64,000 nt of DNA from Flavobacterium sp. 83 (lineage in GTDB: Bacteria; Bacteroidota; Bacteroidia; Flavobacteriales; Flavobacteriaceae), in NCBI RefSeq assembly GCF_000744835.1, contig NZ_JQMS01000001.1, forward strand, positions 1,922,001-1,986,000, read 5' to 3'. Both the position numbers and the translations under genes were made by a program. Under the pieces are notes generated by a model. It was not told the DNA's origin. It ran no database searches and saw only the letters and a program-made list of their open reading frames with translations. Below, one piece after another: positions 7,610-47,507 of the stretch. How positions within the stretch are numbered: the first letter of the stretch is position 1; each line of letters opens with the position of its first letter.

Positions 7610-7933
7610 TTATTTTTTTTCAATCGTATCGCCTTCGAATTCAATGATATAAATATCTTCACTATCTTTTTTCATATAGTATTTTTCGCGGGCGTATTTT
7701 TCTATTTGTTCCGAATTCTTTAGTTCTTTGATATTCTCTTGGTCTTTTTTTATTTCGTCTTGGTAATACTTTTTATTGTCTTCCAGTTCTTCAATTTGCT
7801 TGTCCAAAAATCGGTGGTCGAAATAGGAGTAGTTATCCAGAAATATCATCCAAGTAGCAAAAAACAACAAGACCCAAACGTATTTGTTACTCAAAAATTT
7901 AAACCAAGATTTGTTTTTATATGGATTTTTCAT
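7610..7933 (-). CDS. FtsB/DivIC-type septum formation initiator
   Basis: 107 residues with the layout of DivIC/FtsB: a short cytoplasmic start, one membrane helix (YVWVLLFFATWMIFLD, about residues 18-33), then a charged coiled coil (QIEELEDNKKYYQDEIKKDQ) and a C-terminal EKYAREKYYMKKDSEDIY segment matching the conserved end of the family. These proteins join FtsL and FtsQ in the division complex in the inner membrane. It lies downstream of udk, with a copy of the structured intergenic repeat ending 11 bases before its start, and upstream of mutA. Confidence 0.9.
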   Translation of the reverse strand: MKNPYKNKSWFKFLSNKYVWVLLFFATWMIFLDNYSYFDHRFLDKQIEELEDNKKYYQDEIKKDQENIKELKNSEQIEKYAREKYYMKKDSEDIYIIEFEGDTIEKK

Positions 7934-7944
7934 TTTTGTTTTTT

Positions 7945-8026
7945 TAGCCCCGATTATAGTGAAAATCCTTTTTATTTTTTTTTGACAAAAATAAAAAGAT
8001 TGTAACGGAAAGCGGGAAATAGCTCC
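7945..8026 (-). repeat. Structured intergenic repeat, family 1 (copy D)
   Basis: On the minus strand it begins GGAGCTATTTCCCGC and ends in CGGGGCTA. Between lies a hairpin with arms CTTTTTATTTTT and AAAAATAAAAAG, followed by GGATTTTCACTATAATC. It lies between udk and divIC, and its 3' end is 11 bases before the divIC start codon. Other copies are at 23044, 29229, 37012 and 47247. Confidence 0.9.
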
Positions 8027-8047: not shown

Positions 8048-8656
8048 TTATAGTATTTTTTGATTTATTACCGCCCGGACTACGTCAATGGCTACGGTAT
8101 TGTATTTGTCATTTGGTATAATGATGTCCGCAAATGCTTTTGTAGGCTCTATAAACTGCTCATGCATTGGTTTTAATGTTGTTTGGTATCGATTGATCAC
8201 TTCGTGCATATCGCGACCACGTTCTGCAATATCGCGTCTCATACGACGGATTAATCGTTCGTCAGAATCAGCATGAACATATATTTTTACATCAAATAAA
8301 TCTCTTAATTCTGGATTTGCCAAAATTAAAATACCTTCCACAATCATCACTTTTCTGGGATGTGTAAAAACGGTATCGTCAGTTCTGTTGTGCGTTACAA
8401 AGGAATAAACGGGTTGATTGATATTATTTCCTGCTTTTAATTCTTTAAGATGGGTGACTAATAATTCAAAATCAATAGCCCGCGGATGGTCAAAATTAAT
8501 GAGTGCTCTTTCGTCAAATGAAAGTCCGTGGTTTTCTTTGTAATAGGAATCTTGCGAAATGATACCTACTTCTGTTTCTGGTAATTCATTCATAATCTGA
8601 TGAACTACGGTTGTTTTACCGCTTCCCGTTCCTCCTGCAATTCCTATAATGAGCAT
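8048..8656 (-). CDS. udk: Uridine kinase
   Basis: Phosphorylates uridine and cytidine in pyrimidine salvage. 202 residues, the usual length. The P-loop GIAGGTGSGKTT is at residues 5-16, followed by SQDSYYK, the FDHPRAIDF segment and a MIVEGIL strand typical of the family, and a lid with RRMRRDIAERGRD near residue 135. The start ATG opens directly on the P-loop strand, which leaves no room for another start. It is the first gene of a minus-strand run udk-divIC-mutA-mutB. Confidence 0.97.
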   Translation of the reverse strand: MLIIGIAGGTGSGKTTVVHQIMNELPETEVGIISQDSYYKENHGLSFDERALINFDHPRAIDFELLVTHLKELKAGNNINQPVYSFVTHNRTDDTVFTHPRKVMIVEGILILANPELRDLFDVKIYVHADSDERLIRRMRRDIAERGRDMHEVINRYQTTLKPMHEQFIEPTKAFADIIIPNDKYNTVAIDVVRAVINQKIL

Positions 8657-15828: not shown

Positions 15829-17256
15829 TTATAGCGTTAATTTTTTATTGATATCTTCAACAAATTTCTTGAATTGTTTGTCAGTAGCAACAAGATTATC
15901 AACGGTTTTGCAAGCGTGTAATACTGTAGCGTGATCTCTATCTCCAATTTGTGAACCTATGTTCGCCAAAGATGCTTTTGTGAATTTTTTTGCAAAAAAC
16001 ATAGCTAATTGCCTTGCTTGTACAACATGCCTCTTTCTAGTTTTTGATTGTAATGTTTCTAAATCCAATTGGAAATAATCGGAAACAATTTTTTGAATGT
16101 AATCGATAGAAATTTCTCTTTTTACATTTTTAACAAATTTTTCAACAACACTTTTAGCAAGTTCTAGTGTAACTTCTTTTTTATTAAAGGATGATTGTGC
16201 AATCAGGGAGATAATAGCTCCTTCTAATTCTCGTACATTCGATTTGATGTTTCTGGCAACATATTCAATTATTTCTTCAGGTATTTCGACACCATCTCTA
16301 TACAATATGTTTTTAAGGATAGAAATTCTGGTTTCATAATCCGGTTGGTGCAATTCAGCCGACAATCCCCATTTGAAACGAGATAATAAACGTTGTTCAA
16401 TATCTTGCATGTCAACAGGTGCCTTATCTGATGTTAAGATTACTTGTTTGCCATTTTGATGTAAATAATTAAAAATATGGAAAAACACATCTTGAGTTCC
16501 TGATTTTCCAGAAAGGAATTGAACATCATCAATAATCAAAACATCAATTAATTGATAGAAGTGTATGAAATCATTTCTGTTATTTTTCTTTACCGAGTCG
16601 ATGTATTGTTGTGTGAAAATTTCAGCAGAGATGTATAAGACTGTTTTTTCAGGATATTTGTCTTTTATTTCCACACCTATAGCATGTGCTAAGTGTGTTT
16701 TTCCAAGACCAACTCCTCCAAAAATTAACAATGGATTGAAGGAAGTTCCTCCAGGTTTATTAGCAACAGCCATACCTGCAGAACGAGCCAATCTATTAGA
16801 ATCACCTTCAAGGAAATTATCAAAACTATAATTTGCATTAAGTTGAGATTCGATTTTTAAATTCCGAATTCCTGGGATTACAAATGGATTTTTTAATTCC
16901 GGGTTTAAGTTTTTAAATGGCGCATCAACTTCTTGCGGTTTCATGGGTACTCTATTCGCACTTGGTAACTGCTCCGTAAACGGTTGTTTATTGCCATAAG
17001 TGTTTTCCATTCTAATTTTATAGAGTAACTTTGCGTTTTTTCCAAGTTCTTTCGTAAGCGCTACTTTTAATAATTTCACATAGTGTTCTTCTAGCCATTC
17101 GTAGAAAAATTTACTTGGAACTTGAATATATAATGCGTTATCGGTAAGTTCAACTGATTTGATTGGTTCGAACCAAGTTTTGTAAGCTTGATCCTGAATG
17201 TTGTCTTTTATAAAAGACAAACAGTTTTCCCATACTGATTGAGCAGTTTTGTTCAT
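15829..17256 (-). CDS. dnaA: Chromosomal replication initiator DnaA
   Basis: 475 residues. Domain I is at residues 1-85, the AAA+ ATPase follows with Walker A GGVGLGKT at 180-187 and Walker B LIIDDVQ, and the C-terminal DnaA-box-binding helix-turn-helix contains the signature DRDHATVLHAC. The frame stays open 40 codons upstream, but the ATG at 17256 starts at MNKTAQSVWENC, as in homologues. The upstream spacer (17257-17438) holds at most one DnaA-box-like sequence (TTGTTCACA on the minus strand, about 17340), so no replication origin can be recognised here. Confidence 0.97.
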   Translation of the reverse strand: MNKTAQSVWENCLSFIKDNIQDQAYKTWFEPIKSVELTDNALYIQVPSKFFYEWLEEHYVKLLKVALTKELGKNAKLLYKIRMENTYGNKQPFTEQLPSANRVPMKPQEVDAPFKNLNPELKNPFVIPGIRNLKIESQLNANYSFDNFLEGDSNRLARSAGMAVANKPGGTSFNPLLIFGGVGLGKTHLAHAIGVEIKDKYPEKTVLYISAEIFTQQYIDSVKKNNRNDFIHFYQLIDVLIIDDVQFLSGKSGTQDVFFHIFNYLHQNGKQVILTSDKAPVDMQDIEQRLLSRFKWGLSAELHQPDYETRISILKNILYRDGVEIPEEIIEYVARNIKSNVRELEGAIISLIAQSSFNKKEVTLELAKSVVEKFVKNVKREISIDYIQKIVSDYFQLDLETLQSKTRKRHVVQARQLAMFFAKKFTKASLANIGSQIGDRDHATVLHACKTVDNLVATDKQFKKFVEDINKKLTL

Positions 17257-22973: not shown

Positions 22974-23285
22974 CATACGAGTTTGACACGAAAATACAAA
23001 TTTTGTTACAAATTTTCTTTTCAAAAAATCTAATTTATTTTTTGGAGCTATTTACTTCGTTAGTTCGCTTCGCTCGTATCCACCTTTTCGCTATAATCAG
23101 TTCGTGAAAACAATATTATTTTTCACTTCCAGATTTTCGCTGTAATCTGGGCTAGTCATCTTGTAATAAAATGCAAAAATTTGTAAACAGATTTATTTTA
23201 AAAATAAGATATTTGCAAAGAATTAGAATCTGGAGTTTTTCAACAATTCCTAAATCTGAAAATATAAAAATACAATAATCAAAAA
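22974..23285. other. Intergenic region of 312 bases between divergent genes
   Basis: Spacer between the MacB-type permease (minus) and hisS (plus). It contains a diverged copy of the family 1 repeat (23044-23154) and, near hisS, a one-mismatch -7 candidate (GATATTTG, 23208-23215) with TTTG 24 bases upstream. Nothing else is recognised. Confidence 0.5.
23044..23154 (+). repeat. Structured intergenic repeat, family 1 (diverged copy E)
   Basis: Begins GGAGCTATTT and ends ATCTGGGCTA like the other copies. The interior is longer and carries TTCGCTTCGCTCG and a hairpin GTGAAAA / TTTTCAC. It is upstream of hisS in the same orientation, 131 bases before the start codon. Confidence 0.65.
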
Positions 23286-29184: not shown

Positions 29185-29228
29185 GAACTTGGTTTGTTTC
29201 CGCTTCCGTTAAAATTTAATTAATTTAT

Positions 29229-29308
29229 GGAGCTATTTCCCGCTTTCCGTTGCAATCTTTTTATTTTTAAAGAAAAAATAAAAAGGATTTCCACTTCAAT
29301 CGGGGCTA
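29229..29308 (+). repeat. Structured intergenic repeat, family 1 (copy A)
   Basis: 80 bases: starts GGAGCTATTTCCCGC, then TTTCCGTTGCAATC, a hairpin CTTTTTATTTTT / AAAAATAAAAAG, then GGATTTCCACTTCAATC and the end GGGGCTA. Its 3' end is 13 bases before the start codon of the response regulator gene, so it would lie in that gene's leader. Confidence 0.92.
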
Positions 29309-29321
29309 AAAAAATAAAAAT

Positions 29322-30485
29322 ATGTCAAAAATACTAATCATAGAAGACGAAGCCGCTATTCGAAGAGTACTCACAAAAATACTCTCTGAAGAAAATGACA
29401 CCTATCAGGTTGAGGAAGCCGAAGACGGTGCTGTAGGTTTTGAAAAAATAAAAAACAACGATTACGATTTGGTTTTGTGCGATATCAAAATGCCAAAAAT
29501 GGACGGTGTTGAGGTTCTGGAAGCAGTAAAAAAAATCAAACCCGAAATTCCTATGGTTATGATTTCTGGCCATGGAGATATGGAAACGGCTATCAATACG
29601 ATGCGTTTGGGGGCATTTGATTATATTTCAAAACCGCCGGATTTAAACCGATTATTGAATACGGTTCGTAATGCTTTAGACAAAAAACAACTCGTAGTTG
29701 AAAATAAAATTCTAAAGAAAAAAGTTAGTAAAAACTACGAAATGATTGGCGAAAGCGAAGCCATCAATCACATCAAAGTGATGATTGAGAAGGTTGCGCA
29801 AACTGAAGCACGAGTTTTAATTACGGGACCAAATGGAACCGGAAAAGAATTAGTTGCACATCAATTGCACGAAAAAAGTGAACGGGCTAATTTCCCTTTA
29901 ATCGAAGTGAACTGTGCTGCCATTCCAAGCGAATTAATTGAAAGTGAATTATTCGGTCACGTAAAAGGAGCGTTTACATCGGCAGTGAAAGACCGCGCAG
30001 GGAAATTTGAAGCCGCAGATAAAGGAACTATCTTCTTAGATGAAATTGGTGACATGAGTCTTTCGGCGCAAGCCAAAGTATTGCGTGCTTTACAAGAAAG
30101 CATGATTACTAGAGTGGGAGCAGATAAAGATATTAAAGTCGATGTTCGCGTAGTTGCGGCTACCAATAAAGATTTGAAAAAAGAAATTGCCGAAGGGCGT
30201 TTCCGTGAGGATTTATACCATCGTTTGGCAGTTATCCTGATAAAAGTACCATCATTGAATGACAGACGCGATGATATCCCAATGTTGATTTCGCATTTTG
30301 CGGATAAAATTGCTTCAGAGCAAGGAAATACCGTAAAAAAATTCTCTGCAGCAGCGATTCGTTTATTGCAAGAATACGATTGGACAGGGAATATCCGTGA
30401 ATTGAGAAATGTAGTGGAGCGCTTGATTATCCTTGGCGGAAGCGAAATTTCCGAAAGTGATGTGAAGTTATTCGCAAGTAAATAA
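29322..30485 (+). CDS. Sigma-54 activator-type response regulator without DNA-binding domain
   Basis: 387 residues. The receiver domain (1-120) has the acidic pair in IIEDEAAIRR and the phospho-acceptor Asp54 in LCDIKMPKMDG. The AAA+ domain (about 140-380) has Walker A GPNGTGKE, Walker B GTIFLDEIGD and an arginine-finger region. The sigma-54 contact loop reads GAFTSA, not GAFTGA. The protein ends right after the AAA+ lid (SESDVKLFASK), so the Fis-type helix-turn-helix that would bind enhancer DNA is absent. It could act from solution on sigma-54 holoenzyme. No histidine kinase gene is adjacent. Confidence 0.92.
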   Translation: MSKILIIEDEAAIRRVLTKILSEENDTYQVEEAEDGAVGFEKIKNNDYDLVLCDIKMPKMDGVEVLEAVKKIKPEIPMVMISGHGDMETAINTMRLGAFDYISKPPDLNRLLNTVRNALDKKQLVVENKILKKKVSKNYEMIGESEAINHIKVMIEKVAQTEARVLITGPNGTGKELVAHQLHEKSERANFPLIEVNCAAIPSELIESELFGHVKGAFTSAVKDRAGKFEAADKGTIFLDEIGDMSLSAQAKVLRALQESMITRVGADKDIKVDVRVVAATNKDLKKEIAEGRFREDLYHRLAVILIKVPSLNDRRDDIPMLISHFADKIASEQGNTVKKFSAAAIRLLQEYDWTGNIRELRNVVERLIILGGSEISESDVKLFASK

Positions 30486-36163: not shown

Positions 36164-36985
36164 TCATTTTTTGTCTAATGTCAGTTTATAAATATCCGTT
36201 TCCAGCGCTTCGGTGTCTTTGTCTTCGCAGAGTAGGAATTCGATTTTTTCTTTTGAATTGGCATATAAAGTTAATCCTTCGAATTTGTGGGTTTCCGAAA
36301 TTTTTTGGGTAAGTGTCAGTTCGAAAGTGTCTAATGACAACGCGCCAATGAAACTTCCCAGGACTTCTCCATCATCATAAGTTGAGGTTGTGTTTTCGAC
36401 AGCTGCTAAGAAGTAGATTTTATCTTCTACGAGAATAGCATCTGTAAAAGTGGCTTCTACGTTTTGGATTTTTGGTAATGCGATTGGAAAAAACTGAATA
36501 CTATTTTCTTCTTTATCTAGAATAAAAATGCCATTTTTAGATTGCGCTCCATTTCCCCGTTGAAACAAATGCCATTTTTCATTATGGAACAAAGCGCCTT
36601 CCAGGTTTAAATCATTATCTGAAATAGAAGCTGTTTGTTTTAGTTTTTCATAAATTGTGGATAAGTCTTTTTCTTCTATTACTTTAGAAATAAGACCGTA
36701 ACTGATGCGTTTGTTTCTATTTGGCGTGGAACCAGAACCGAAAATATATAATTTATTTTCTTTTTGGGTAATGGATTCAAAATCGAATTTGTCTTTTTTA
36801 GGAATGTTTTCCTGGCTGTTTTCGAAGAGTTTTATTTTATGGAGTTCTTTTTCCTTGATGGAGTATTCGTAAAGGAAAGAGCTGTTATCAGAGATTATAA
36901 ACAAGGAATCGTCTTTATGAATGAATCCTGATGCCGAACCAATGCCGATAATTTGAAATAGTAATTCGAGTGTAAATTTTTCCAT
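36164..36985 (-). CDS. Conserved protein of unknown function, propeller-like repeats
   Basis: 273 residues, cytoplasmic (no signal peptide). Repeated beta-strand units such as GSASGFIHKDDSLFIISDNSSFLYEYS, then ENKLYIFGSGSTPNRNKR, HNEKWHLFQRGNG and EDKIYFLAAVENTTST are spaced as in a beta-propeller or a phytase-like sheet. I do not recognise the family with certainty. It starts 26 bases downstream (minus strand) of repeat copy C. Confidence 0.75.
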   Translation of the reverse strand: MEKFTLELLFQIIGIGSASGFIHKDDSLFIISDNSSFLYEYSIKEKELHKIKLFENSQENIPKKDKFDFESITQKENKLYIFGSGSTPNRNKRISYGLISKVIEEKDLSTIYEKLKQTASISDNDLNLEGALFHNEKWHLFQRGNGAQSKNGIFILDKEENSIQFFPIALPKIQNVEATFTDAILVEDKIYFLAAVENTTSTYDDGEVLGSFIGALSLDTFELTLTQKISETHKFEGLTLYANSKEKIEFLLCEDKDTEALETDIYKLTLDKK

Positions 36986-37011
36986 GATTTTTATTTTGAA
37001 AACGGATGCCC

Positions 37012-37092
37012 TAGCCCAGATAGCAGTGGAAATCCTTTTATTATTTTCTTTAAAATAATAAAAGATTGCAACGAATAGCTGGAAATAGCTCC
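37012..37092 (-). repeat. Structured intergenic repeat, family 1 (copy C)
   Basis: On the minus strand: GGAGCTATTTCCAGC, ATTCGTTGCAATC, hairpin CTTTTATTATTTT / AAAATAATAAAAG, then GGATTTCCACTGCTATC and the end GGGCTA. It is in the space between divergent genes, oriented toward the gene starting at 36985, 26 bases away. Confidence 0.92.
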
Positions 37093-47246: not shown

Positions 47247-47337
47247 GGAGCTTTTTCCCGCTATCCGTTGCAATCTTTATAACAGTAAACCTTCCAGAGT
47301 TTACTGCTATAAAGGATTTCCACTTTTATCGGGGCTA
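47247..47337 (+). repeat. Structured intergenic repeat, family 1 (copy B)
   Basis: 91 bases: GGAGCTTTTTCCCGC, then ATCCGTTGCAATC, a hairpin TATAACAGTAAAC / GTTTACTGCTATA (one mismatch), then GGATTTCCACTTTTATC and the end GGGGCTA. Located between the MFS and peroxiredoxin genes on their strand, 170 bases before the latter start. Confidence 0.92.
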
Positions 47338-47507
47338 GGGATTTTTGTCTTCTAGCTATTTTTGGATTGCTTAGATGATTCTTAATAACCATAAACACGT
47401 ACCGGCATCTTCTTTAATTTTTATTAGAACTTTAAGATTTGTTTTGATTTTTATTGCCCTTAATTCAATAACTTAGTTTATTAATAATCAATAAAAAAGA
47501 AATTAGT

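Follow-up and report, generated by a model that had tools for sequence, protein, structure and literature searches.

Flavo-1 elements of Flavobacterium sp. 83 preserve a fold on one strand and are probably mobile intergenic repeats

The window analyzed here is a stretch of 64,000 nucleotides from Flavobacterium sp. 83 (contig NZ_JQMS01000001.1, positions 1,922,001 to 1,986,000), and it carries five copies of a short intergenic element with conserved ends and a variable hairpin. An earlier sequence-only reading had reported this element, and inspection of the sequence finds what it described at all five places, with both the fixed ends and the varying hairpin tips as reported. The distances of 11, 13, and 26 bases that it gave between three of the copies and a start codon also agree with the list of open reading frames (from 7945 to the ATG at 7933, from 29308 to that at 29322, and from 37012 to that at 36985). 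Up to about 20 kb, the long open reading frames of the window lie mainly on the minus strand; over the stretch that follows, they lie mainly on the plus strand. We note that a DnaA domain (PF00308) matches at window positions 16357-16842, and the start of the contig is therefore not dnaA.

The sequence-only reading gave the element no known-family name, but it already has one: it is Flavo-1, Rfam family RF01705. Four of the five copies exceed the curated threshold of the RF01705 covariance model (42 bits) in a scan with Rfam 15, with E-values from 1.3e-17 to 2.7e-13, and these matches are on the strand opposite to that given earlier. The copy at 23044 scores under the cut-off (genome positions 1945073-1945157, minus strand) and has a different 3' hairpin module, preceding AAATAGCTCC. 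Copy 3 lies upstream of a response-regulator-like gene (29322-30485), and two plus-strand ORFs flank copy 5 (Table 1). The udk-like protein encoded next to copy 1 reaches 99% identity to that of named Flavobacterium records, in keeping with a Flavobacterium host.

Table 1. Flavo-1 copies in the window, with the genes on either side of copy 1; strands of the copies follow Rfam.
Feature	Position in window	Strand	RF01705 match
Flavo-1 copy 1, short form	7942..8026	+	80 bits at 7942-8023
udk-like gene beside copy 1	8048-8656	-	
Gene beside copy 1 noted earlier as divIC	7610-7933	-	
Flavo-1 copy 2, diverged	23044..23157	-	32 bits at 23073-23157, below cut-off
Flavo-1 copy 3, short form	29228..29311	-	85.5 bits
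Flavo-1 copy 4, short form, divergent genes on either side	37009..37092	+	78.9 bits
Flavo-1 copy 5, short form, different tip stem	47247..47340	-	69.9 bits

Flavo-1 is abundant in its own genome and patchily distributed outside it. The 3.79-Mb genome has at least 101 matches to RF01705 at E ≤0.001 and at least 89 above the cut-off, which are lower bounds from scoring 150 of 1201 first-look candidates; the copies are on both strands and spread all round the chromosome. All 12 other genomes of the genus carry Flavo-1, with at least 4 to at least 101 matches each, as do two of eight genomes from other families (14 and 42 matches), the remaining six having none among the candidates scored (up to 137 per genome in both searches). 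In a sample of Bacteroidota, with stricter filters and up to 22 candidates scored per genome, at least 28 of 198 genomes have a match, the Flavobacterium sp. 83 genome counted in, and eight of these 28 have a single one.

The family also occurs in a Bacillota species, on plasmids of Paraclostridium bifermentans that match at 64.2 and 62.2 bits. There the Flavo-1 cores are bounded by distinct outer ends, GGAGTTTGGC...GCTAACTC (loci L208 and L209), and the stretch carrying them contains no annotated genes and is common to several of these plasmids. Five viral contigs with Flavo-1 were found as well. A single pattern brought out four of them; of three further patterns, one gave no match, one returned two contigs already known, and one added the fifth contig. 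L210, a microvirus-like viral contig of 5.7 kb (5676 bases) encoding major head, replication-initiation, and pilot proteins, carries a type-B Flavo-1 with ends GCTTAGGG...AGCCCGACCC just 3' of the stop codon of the replication gene. Two short-form Flavo-1 queries had no match in annotated phages, nor did the type-B query in plasmids.

On the Rfam strand, Flavo-1 folds as one long hairpin, in which the ends pair, the basal core contains two conserved internal loops, and the tip varies. The conserved ends and covarying stem proposed from the window are borne out by the larger set, in which paired bases change together far above shuffled controls. Four variable core pairs are Watson-Crick in 79, 79, 77, and 74 of 84 distinct cores of this genome (two of the 89 copies were not parsed, and identical cores were merged), compared with means of 24, 29, 50, and 40 of 84 when the right-hand letters are shuffled. 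The lengths of the internal loops also match between the two arms: among 193 distinct copies, 123 are long on both arms, 68 are short on both, and two are mixed, with 10 of 84 mixed under a looser parse. One copy (L084) has become perfectly palindromic, the outcome expected of template switching; that the other copies keep mismatched internal loops suggests that the loops are under selection.

Which strand folds can be asked of single transitions, each of which turns a G-C or A-T pair into either G.T or A.C, with the kind that is tolerated showing the folding strand. Read on the Rfam strand, the four core pairs contain 22 G.T and two A.C mismatches in the 193 distinct copies, a set defined by a stricter pattern (62 distinct copies from this genome, 25 from udk loci, and 106 others), with 16 of the 22 G.T cells at one pair. 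The tip stems show the same asymmetry, with 29 isolated G.T mismatches and two A.C in 179 distinct tips, although related tips, including those of the udk site, share ancestry and the counts are not independent. At the udk-divIC site, where the Rfam strand is antisense to the operon, there are nine G.T and no A.C mismatches, all of them in tips (19 distinct copies restricted to the site; a whole-locus count of 22 copies gives 11 and none). In tandem-antisense copies of the Flavobacterium sp. 83 genome, cores show two G.T and no A.C mismatches, and tips three and none. The mRNA of the udk-divIC genes is thus not the selected molecule. The G.T excess may alternatively reflect a strand-asymmetric mutation bias. 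The fold itself is preserved on Rfam's strand, a statement that holds for RNA and single-stranded DNA alike.

These observations bear directly on the possibility that the element is a cis-acting RNA leader, with a hairpin in the 5' end of an mRNA that controls translation or transcription of the gene downstream. The sequence-only reading had suggested a structured RNA leader, or a mobile palindromic unit tolerated only in leaders, and had reported that all five copies face the downstream gene; the position of three of the five, 11 to 26 bases before a start codon, does speak for a leader. The genome-wide count of orientations that it called for yields no rule, however. Among the 89 copies above the cut-off, with strand as in Rfam and genes called by a simple ORF rule, 29 are in tandem and antisense, 20 in tandem and sense, 23 in divergent and 10 in convergent regions, and seven overlap an ORF call. 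The 29 antisense and 20 sense copies fit chance (p 0.25), and their bit scores do not differ (p 0.92). Nor is facing the downstream gene general: on the strand used earlier, the gene on the 3' side starts there in 55 of the 88 copies that have a called gene on that side, and about 50.5 are expected by calculation from random flipping of every copy within its own intergenic region. Given the mixed orientation, tolerance only in leaders is likewise not supported, and the preserved strand is antisense to the genes named earlier, with the udk-divIC site keeping its fold on the strand that is not the mRNA. Genes adjoining the copies share no recurring family, none being found at more than three of 90 loci in this genome or more than two of 37 long-form loci. 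A published F. psychrophilum transcriptome study (PMC9723704) places Flavo-1 matches in both orientations, many of them away from transcribed regions, although several 5' transcribed regions do overlap them. Taken with these counts, a leader function is very unlikely. By raw counts, divergent regions (23) outnumber convergent ones (10), and the copies may prefer regions with gene starts on both sides.

A search for element halves that the list of Rfam matches did not explain brought out a longer form of Flavo-1, of about 143 nt. Its outer ends and basal core are those of the short form, to which it adds a middle helix with conserved runs of A and T and an apical module, AGCGACCNNNGGAAGCT. This 17-base pattern occurs 15 times in the Flavobacterium sp. 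83 genome and is present in 11 of 21 genomes, all 11 of which have Flavo-1; the reversed pattern, as a control, is found in none of the 21. The pattern gave 80 matches, 30 of which were taken as loci, and nine of the 15 in this genome were inspected. Thirty-nine distinct long-form stretches have Flavo-1-like frames, three of them chimeric and some diverged, mainly in genome G013.

We aligned 31 of these (leaving aside the three chimeric ones and L183, L381, L387, L398, and L405), and RNAalifold predicts 40 pairs, 27 of which have changed on both sides. The alignment contains 269 doubly changed cells, against 91.5 when shuffled and at most 95 when the structure is slid, the structure having been derived from the same alignment on which it is tested. 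That the apical module does not vary among these rows follows from its use in finding them. G.T clearly exceeds A.C in the distal helix, at 19 to 2; for the alignment as a whole the excess is weaker, at 41 to 20 (26 to 12, p 0.03, when each column pair is counted once). The 76-position model of RF01705 takes the part added in the long form for a loop; nine long copies were scanned with it, and six score below threshold. Short forms are likely to have been derived from the long one. Upstream of an ABC-transporter-like gene, two genomes have the long form at the place where the Flavobacterium sp. 83 genome has a short form with other hairpin modules incorporated. The apical motif has at least 120 matches in viral contigs, and two of the 120 listed have at least eight of 12 outward pairs, which looks like chance; these matches were left aside, although the measure is crude (true long copies often score low because of bulges) and a few real viral ones may be included.

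Several observations suggest that Flavo-1 copies move. Copy 3 shares 81 bases, at 100% identity, with contig 27 of genome G251, a non-orthologous place in another species, and the identity stops at the edges of the element, as judged from the alignment match; the orthologous site in G251, on contig 1, matches at 79%. Copies at different places within the Flavobacterium sp. 83 genome can also be close, as with L015 and L018, which agree at 82 of 86 bases. The mobile palindromic unit that had been offered as an alternative to a leader is supported. What occupies the site at window position 29229 varies across species: a Flavo-1 copy, a different palindromic repeat, or next to nothing, as in L264 with 21 bases. 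The udk-divIC site was compared at 80 loci, of which a loose end motif flags 42, and 18 have 36 or fewer bases between the genes; some copies there have decayed, by eye, past pairing, and close species have wholly different hairpin tips. At some orthologous sites, many species retain paired copies, a pattern that a host function would account for as well. In 57 short-form copies, with offsets from -2 to +2, we found no consistent target-site duplication, the agreement being at most slightly above that of shuffled partners.

In the reading that we prefer, and to which we assign a probability of roughly 0.6, Flavo-1 is a non-autonomous mobile repeat recognized in trans as a folded single strand. 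Copies would be intergenic and about 75-145 nt in length, each forming on its Rfam strand a single long hairpin with a tip that is free to change provided it pairs. A trans-acting recombinase or transposase would recognize this folded strand, either as single-stranded DNA or perhaps as an RNA intermediate, insertion would be tolerated between genes in either orientation, and copies would then decay, be renewed, or swap tips, which could account for the differences among tips. A comparable case is that of the attC sites of integrons, imperfect hairpins with a conserved base and variable terminal structure that are recognized as folded single strands. Flavo-1 is likewise an imperfect hairpin with a conserved base and variable tip, for which single-strand recognition is proposed here, but the R boxes of attC (RYYYAAC/GTTRRRY) are in none of the 89 copies. 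ERIC, BOX, and Correia elements are also interspersed structured intergenic repeats, with a mobilizer that is unknown or borrowed, and Flavo-1 resembles them as they are generally described.

The nature of such an enzyme can be approached through known modes of spread. REP/REPIN elements and Flavo-1 are both short, folded, intergenic, and high in copy number, with a variable middle and conserved ends (PMC3733652), and a palindromic repeat with this life style might be moved by a RAYT, a Y1 HUH transposase (PF01797). In the Flavobacterium sp. 83 genome, the stop codon of one intact RAYT-like gene is followed, after about 90 bp, by a Flavo-1 copy, and this single adjoining gene prompted us to consider the link. 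It was dropped after 30 RAYT loci and four genomes without RAYT had been compared. A Flavo-1 above threshold lies within about 1.5 kb at two of the 30 loci, with about 1.3 expected from density (calculated for 31), and genomes G004, G011, G012, and G013, with 101, 46, 12, and 14 Flavo-1 matches, respectively, have no PF01797 match at E 0.001, although a RAYT may have been lost there or be very divergent. In contrast to REP/REPIN elements, no link of Flavo-1 to RAYT genes was found; GTAG is near an end in eight of 89 copies and CGTC in one of 89. Mobilization by a RAYT is, on these grounds, quite unlikely. The intact gene (L032:1423-1989) is flanked by an inverted repeat of its own, CGCTACCGCACGAATCCTTTCGTGTGGTTCG, that is unlike Flavo-1. 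A second RAYT-like gene (L033, at C1:3491525 of the same genome) has an in-frame TGA and is probably a pseudogene.

IS608-like single-strand transposons insert with an orientation bias relative to replication that follows a lagging-strand rule. This expectation for an IS200/IS605-like element is not borne out in Flavo-1, for which we find no replication-orientation bias (49:40, p 0.40, on the assumption that dnaA marks the origin; 39:50 if the sampled skew minimum is used instead), and this counts against the reading that we prefer. An ordinary MITE, that is, an internally deleted DDE transposon whose transposase acts on double-stranded ends, would be consistent with the fixed ends, the size, and the interspersed intergenic copies. 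It is nevertheless highly improbable, given the lack of a consistent target-site duplication and a structure that is kept on one strand. We also considered an autonomous element lying between two half-copies; among ten loci in the Flavobacterium sp. 83 genome with half-element patterns, seven are complete long copies and three are rearranged short ones, and in the loci inspected no gene lies between the halves.

A further alternative is spread through an RNA intermediate, in which the Rfam strand would be transcribed, folded, and reverse transcribed in trans, as for a SINE. The strong tolerance of G.T (G.U in RNA) on one strand, the RNA-like long form with its internal loops, the absence of target-site duplications, and the lack of replication-strand bias are all compatible with this, but G.T tolerance fits single-stranded DNA too, and we regard an RNA intermediate as unlikely. 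Returning to the non-autonomous repeat recognized as a folded single strand, its broadest version would make Flavo-1 a short and decayed derivative of a non-coding element of about 143 nt, a bacterial counterpart of SINEs or REPINs. This element would spread through bacteria, phages, and plasmids of two phyla as a folded single strand, by means of an enzyme not yet known for such elements. We put this forward tentatively, as a doubtful extension.

The family itself has been known since 2010 (PMC2864571); its anatomy, in particular the long form, and its interpretation are new relative to the entry there, a table row reading y, n, n for Bacteroidetes (Weinberg et al. 2010), which we take to mean that a structured RNA is likely and cis-regulation is not. 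In a literature search that had most subscription papers outside its scope, we found no description of Flavo-1 as mobile, of its strand polarity, or of its long form. The window and genome copies agree with RF01705 in sequence and secondary structure, but Flavo-1 appears to behave here as a mobile repeat and not as the sRNA gene of its Rfam class ("Gene; sRNA"), and the long form extends beyond the model. In one review, Flavo-1 is among the most abundant sRNA families (PMC9029176). Because the family is filed as an sRNA, Rfam annotation may call dozens to about 100 sRNAs per Flavobacterium genome, and if Flavo-1 is a mobile repeat, those calls and the regulatory stories built on them are wrong. 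Flavo-1 also offers a large natural data set in which a mobilizer could be sought, since each Flavobacterium genome has tens to about 100 folded copies that show compensatory changes and strand polarity.

Other palindromic repeats were encountered in the course of this work. Before the response-regulator gene (loci L244-L273), species lacking Flavo-1 often carry another palindrome, of the AAAGTTGCAAAGGTTC...GAACCTTTGCAACTT type, as if this intergenic site attracted repeats. In the Flavobacterium sp. 83 genome, a Y1 (IS200-like) transposase domain lies, by Pfam, within an Eco57I-type restriction-methylase protein (L031, C1:2631231-2634428). The protein contains repeated in-frame peptides such as DKGFKPLVDS, one of which is encoded by the palindrome AAGGGGTTTAAACCCCTT; this was not found in the 64-kb window, and it may be mobile and able to insert within coding frames. 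Finally, the tips of the Flavo-1 copies L020, L049, L064, L065, and L070 are built of another palindrome, GAACTTGTTTCAGG and its complement, so that one repeat seems to be nested in the apex of another.
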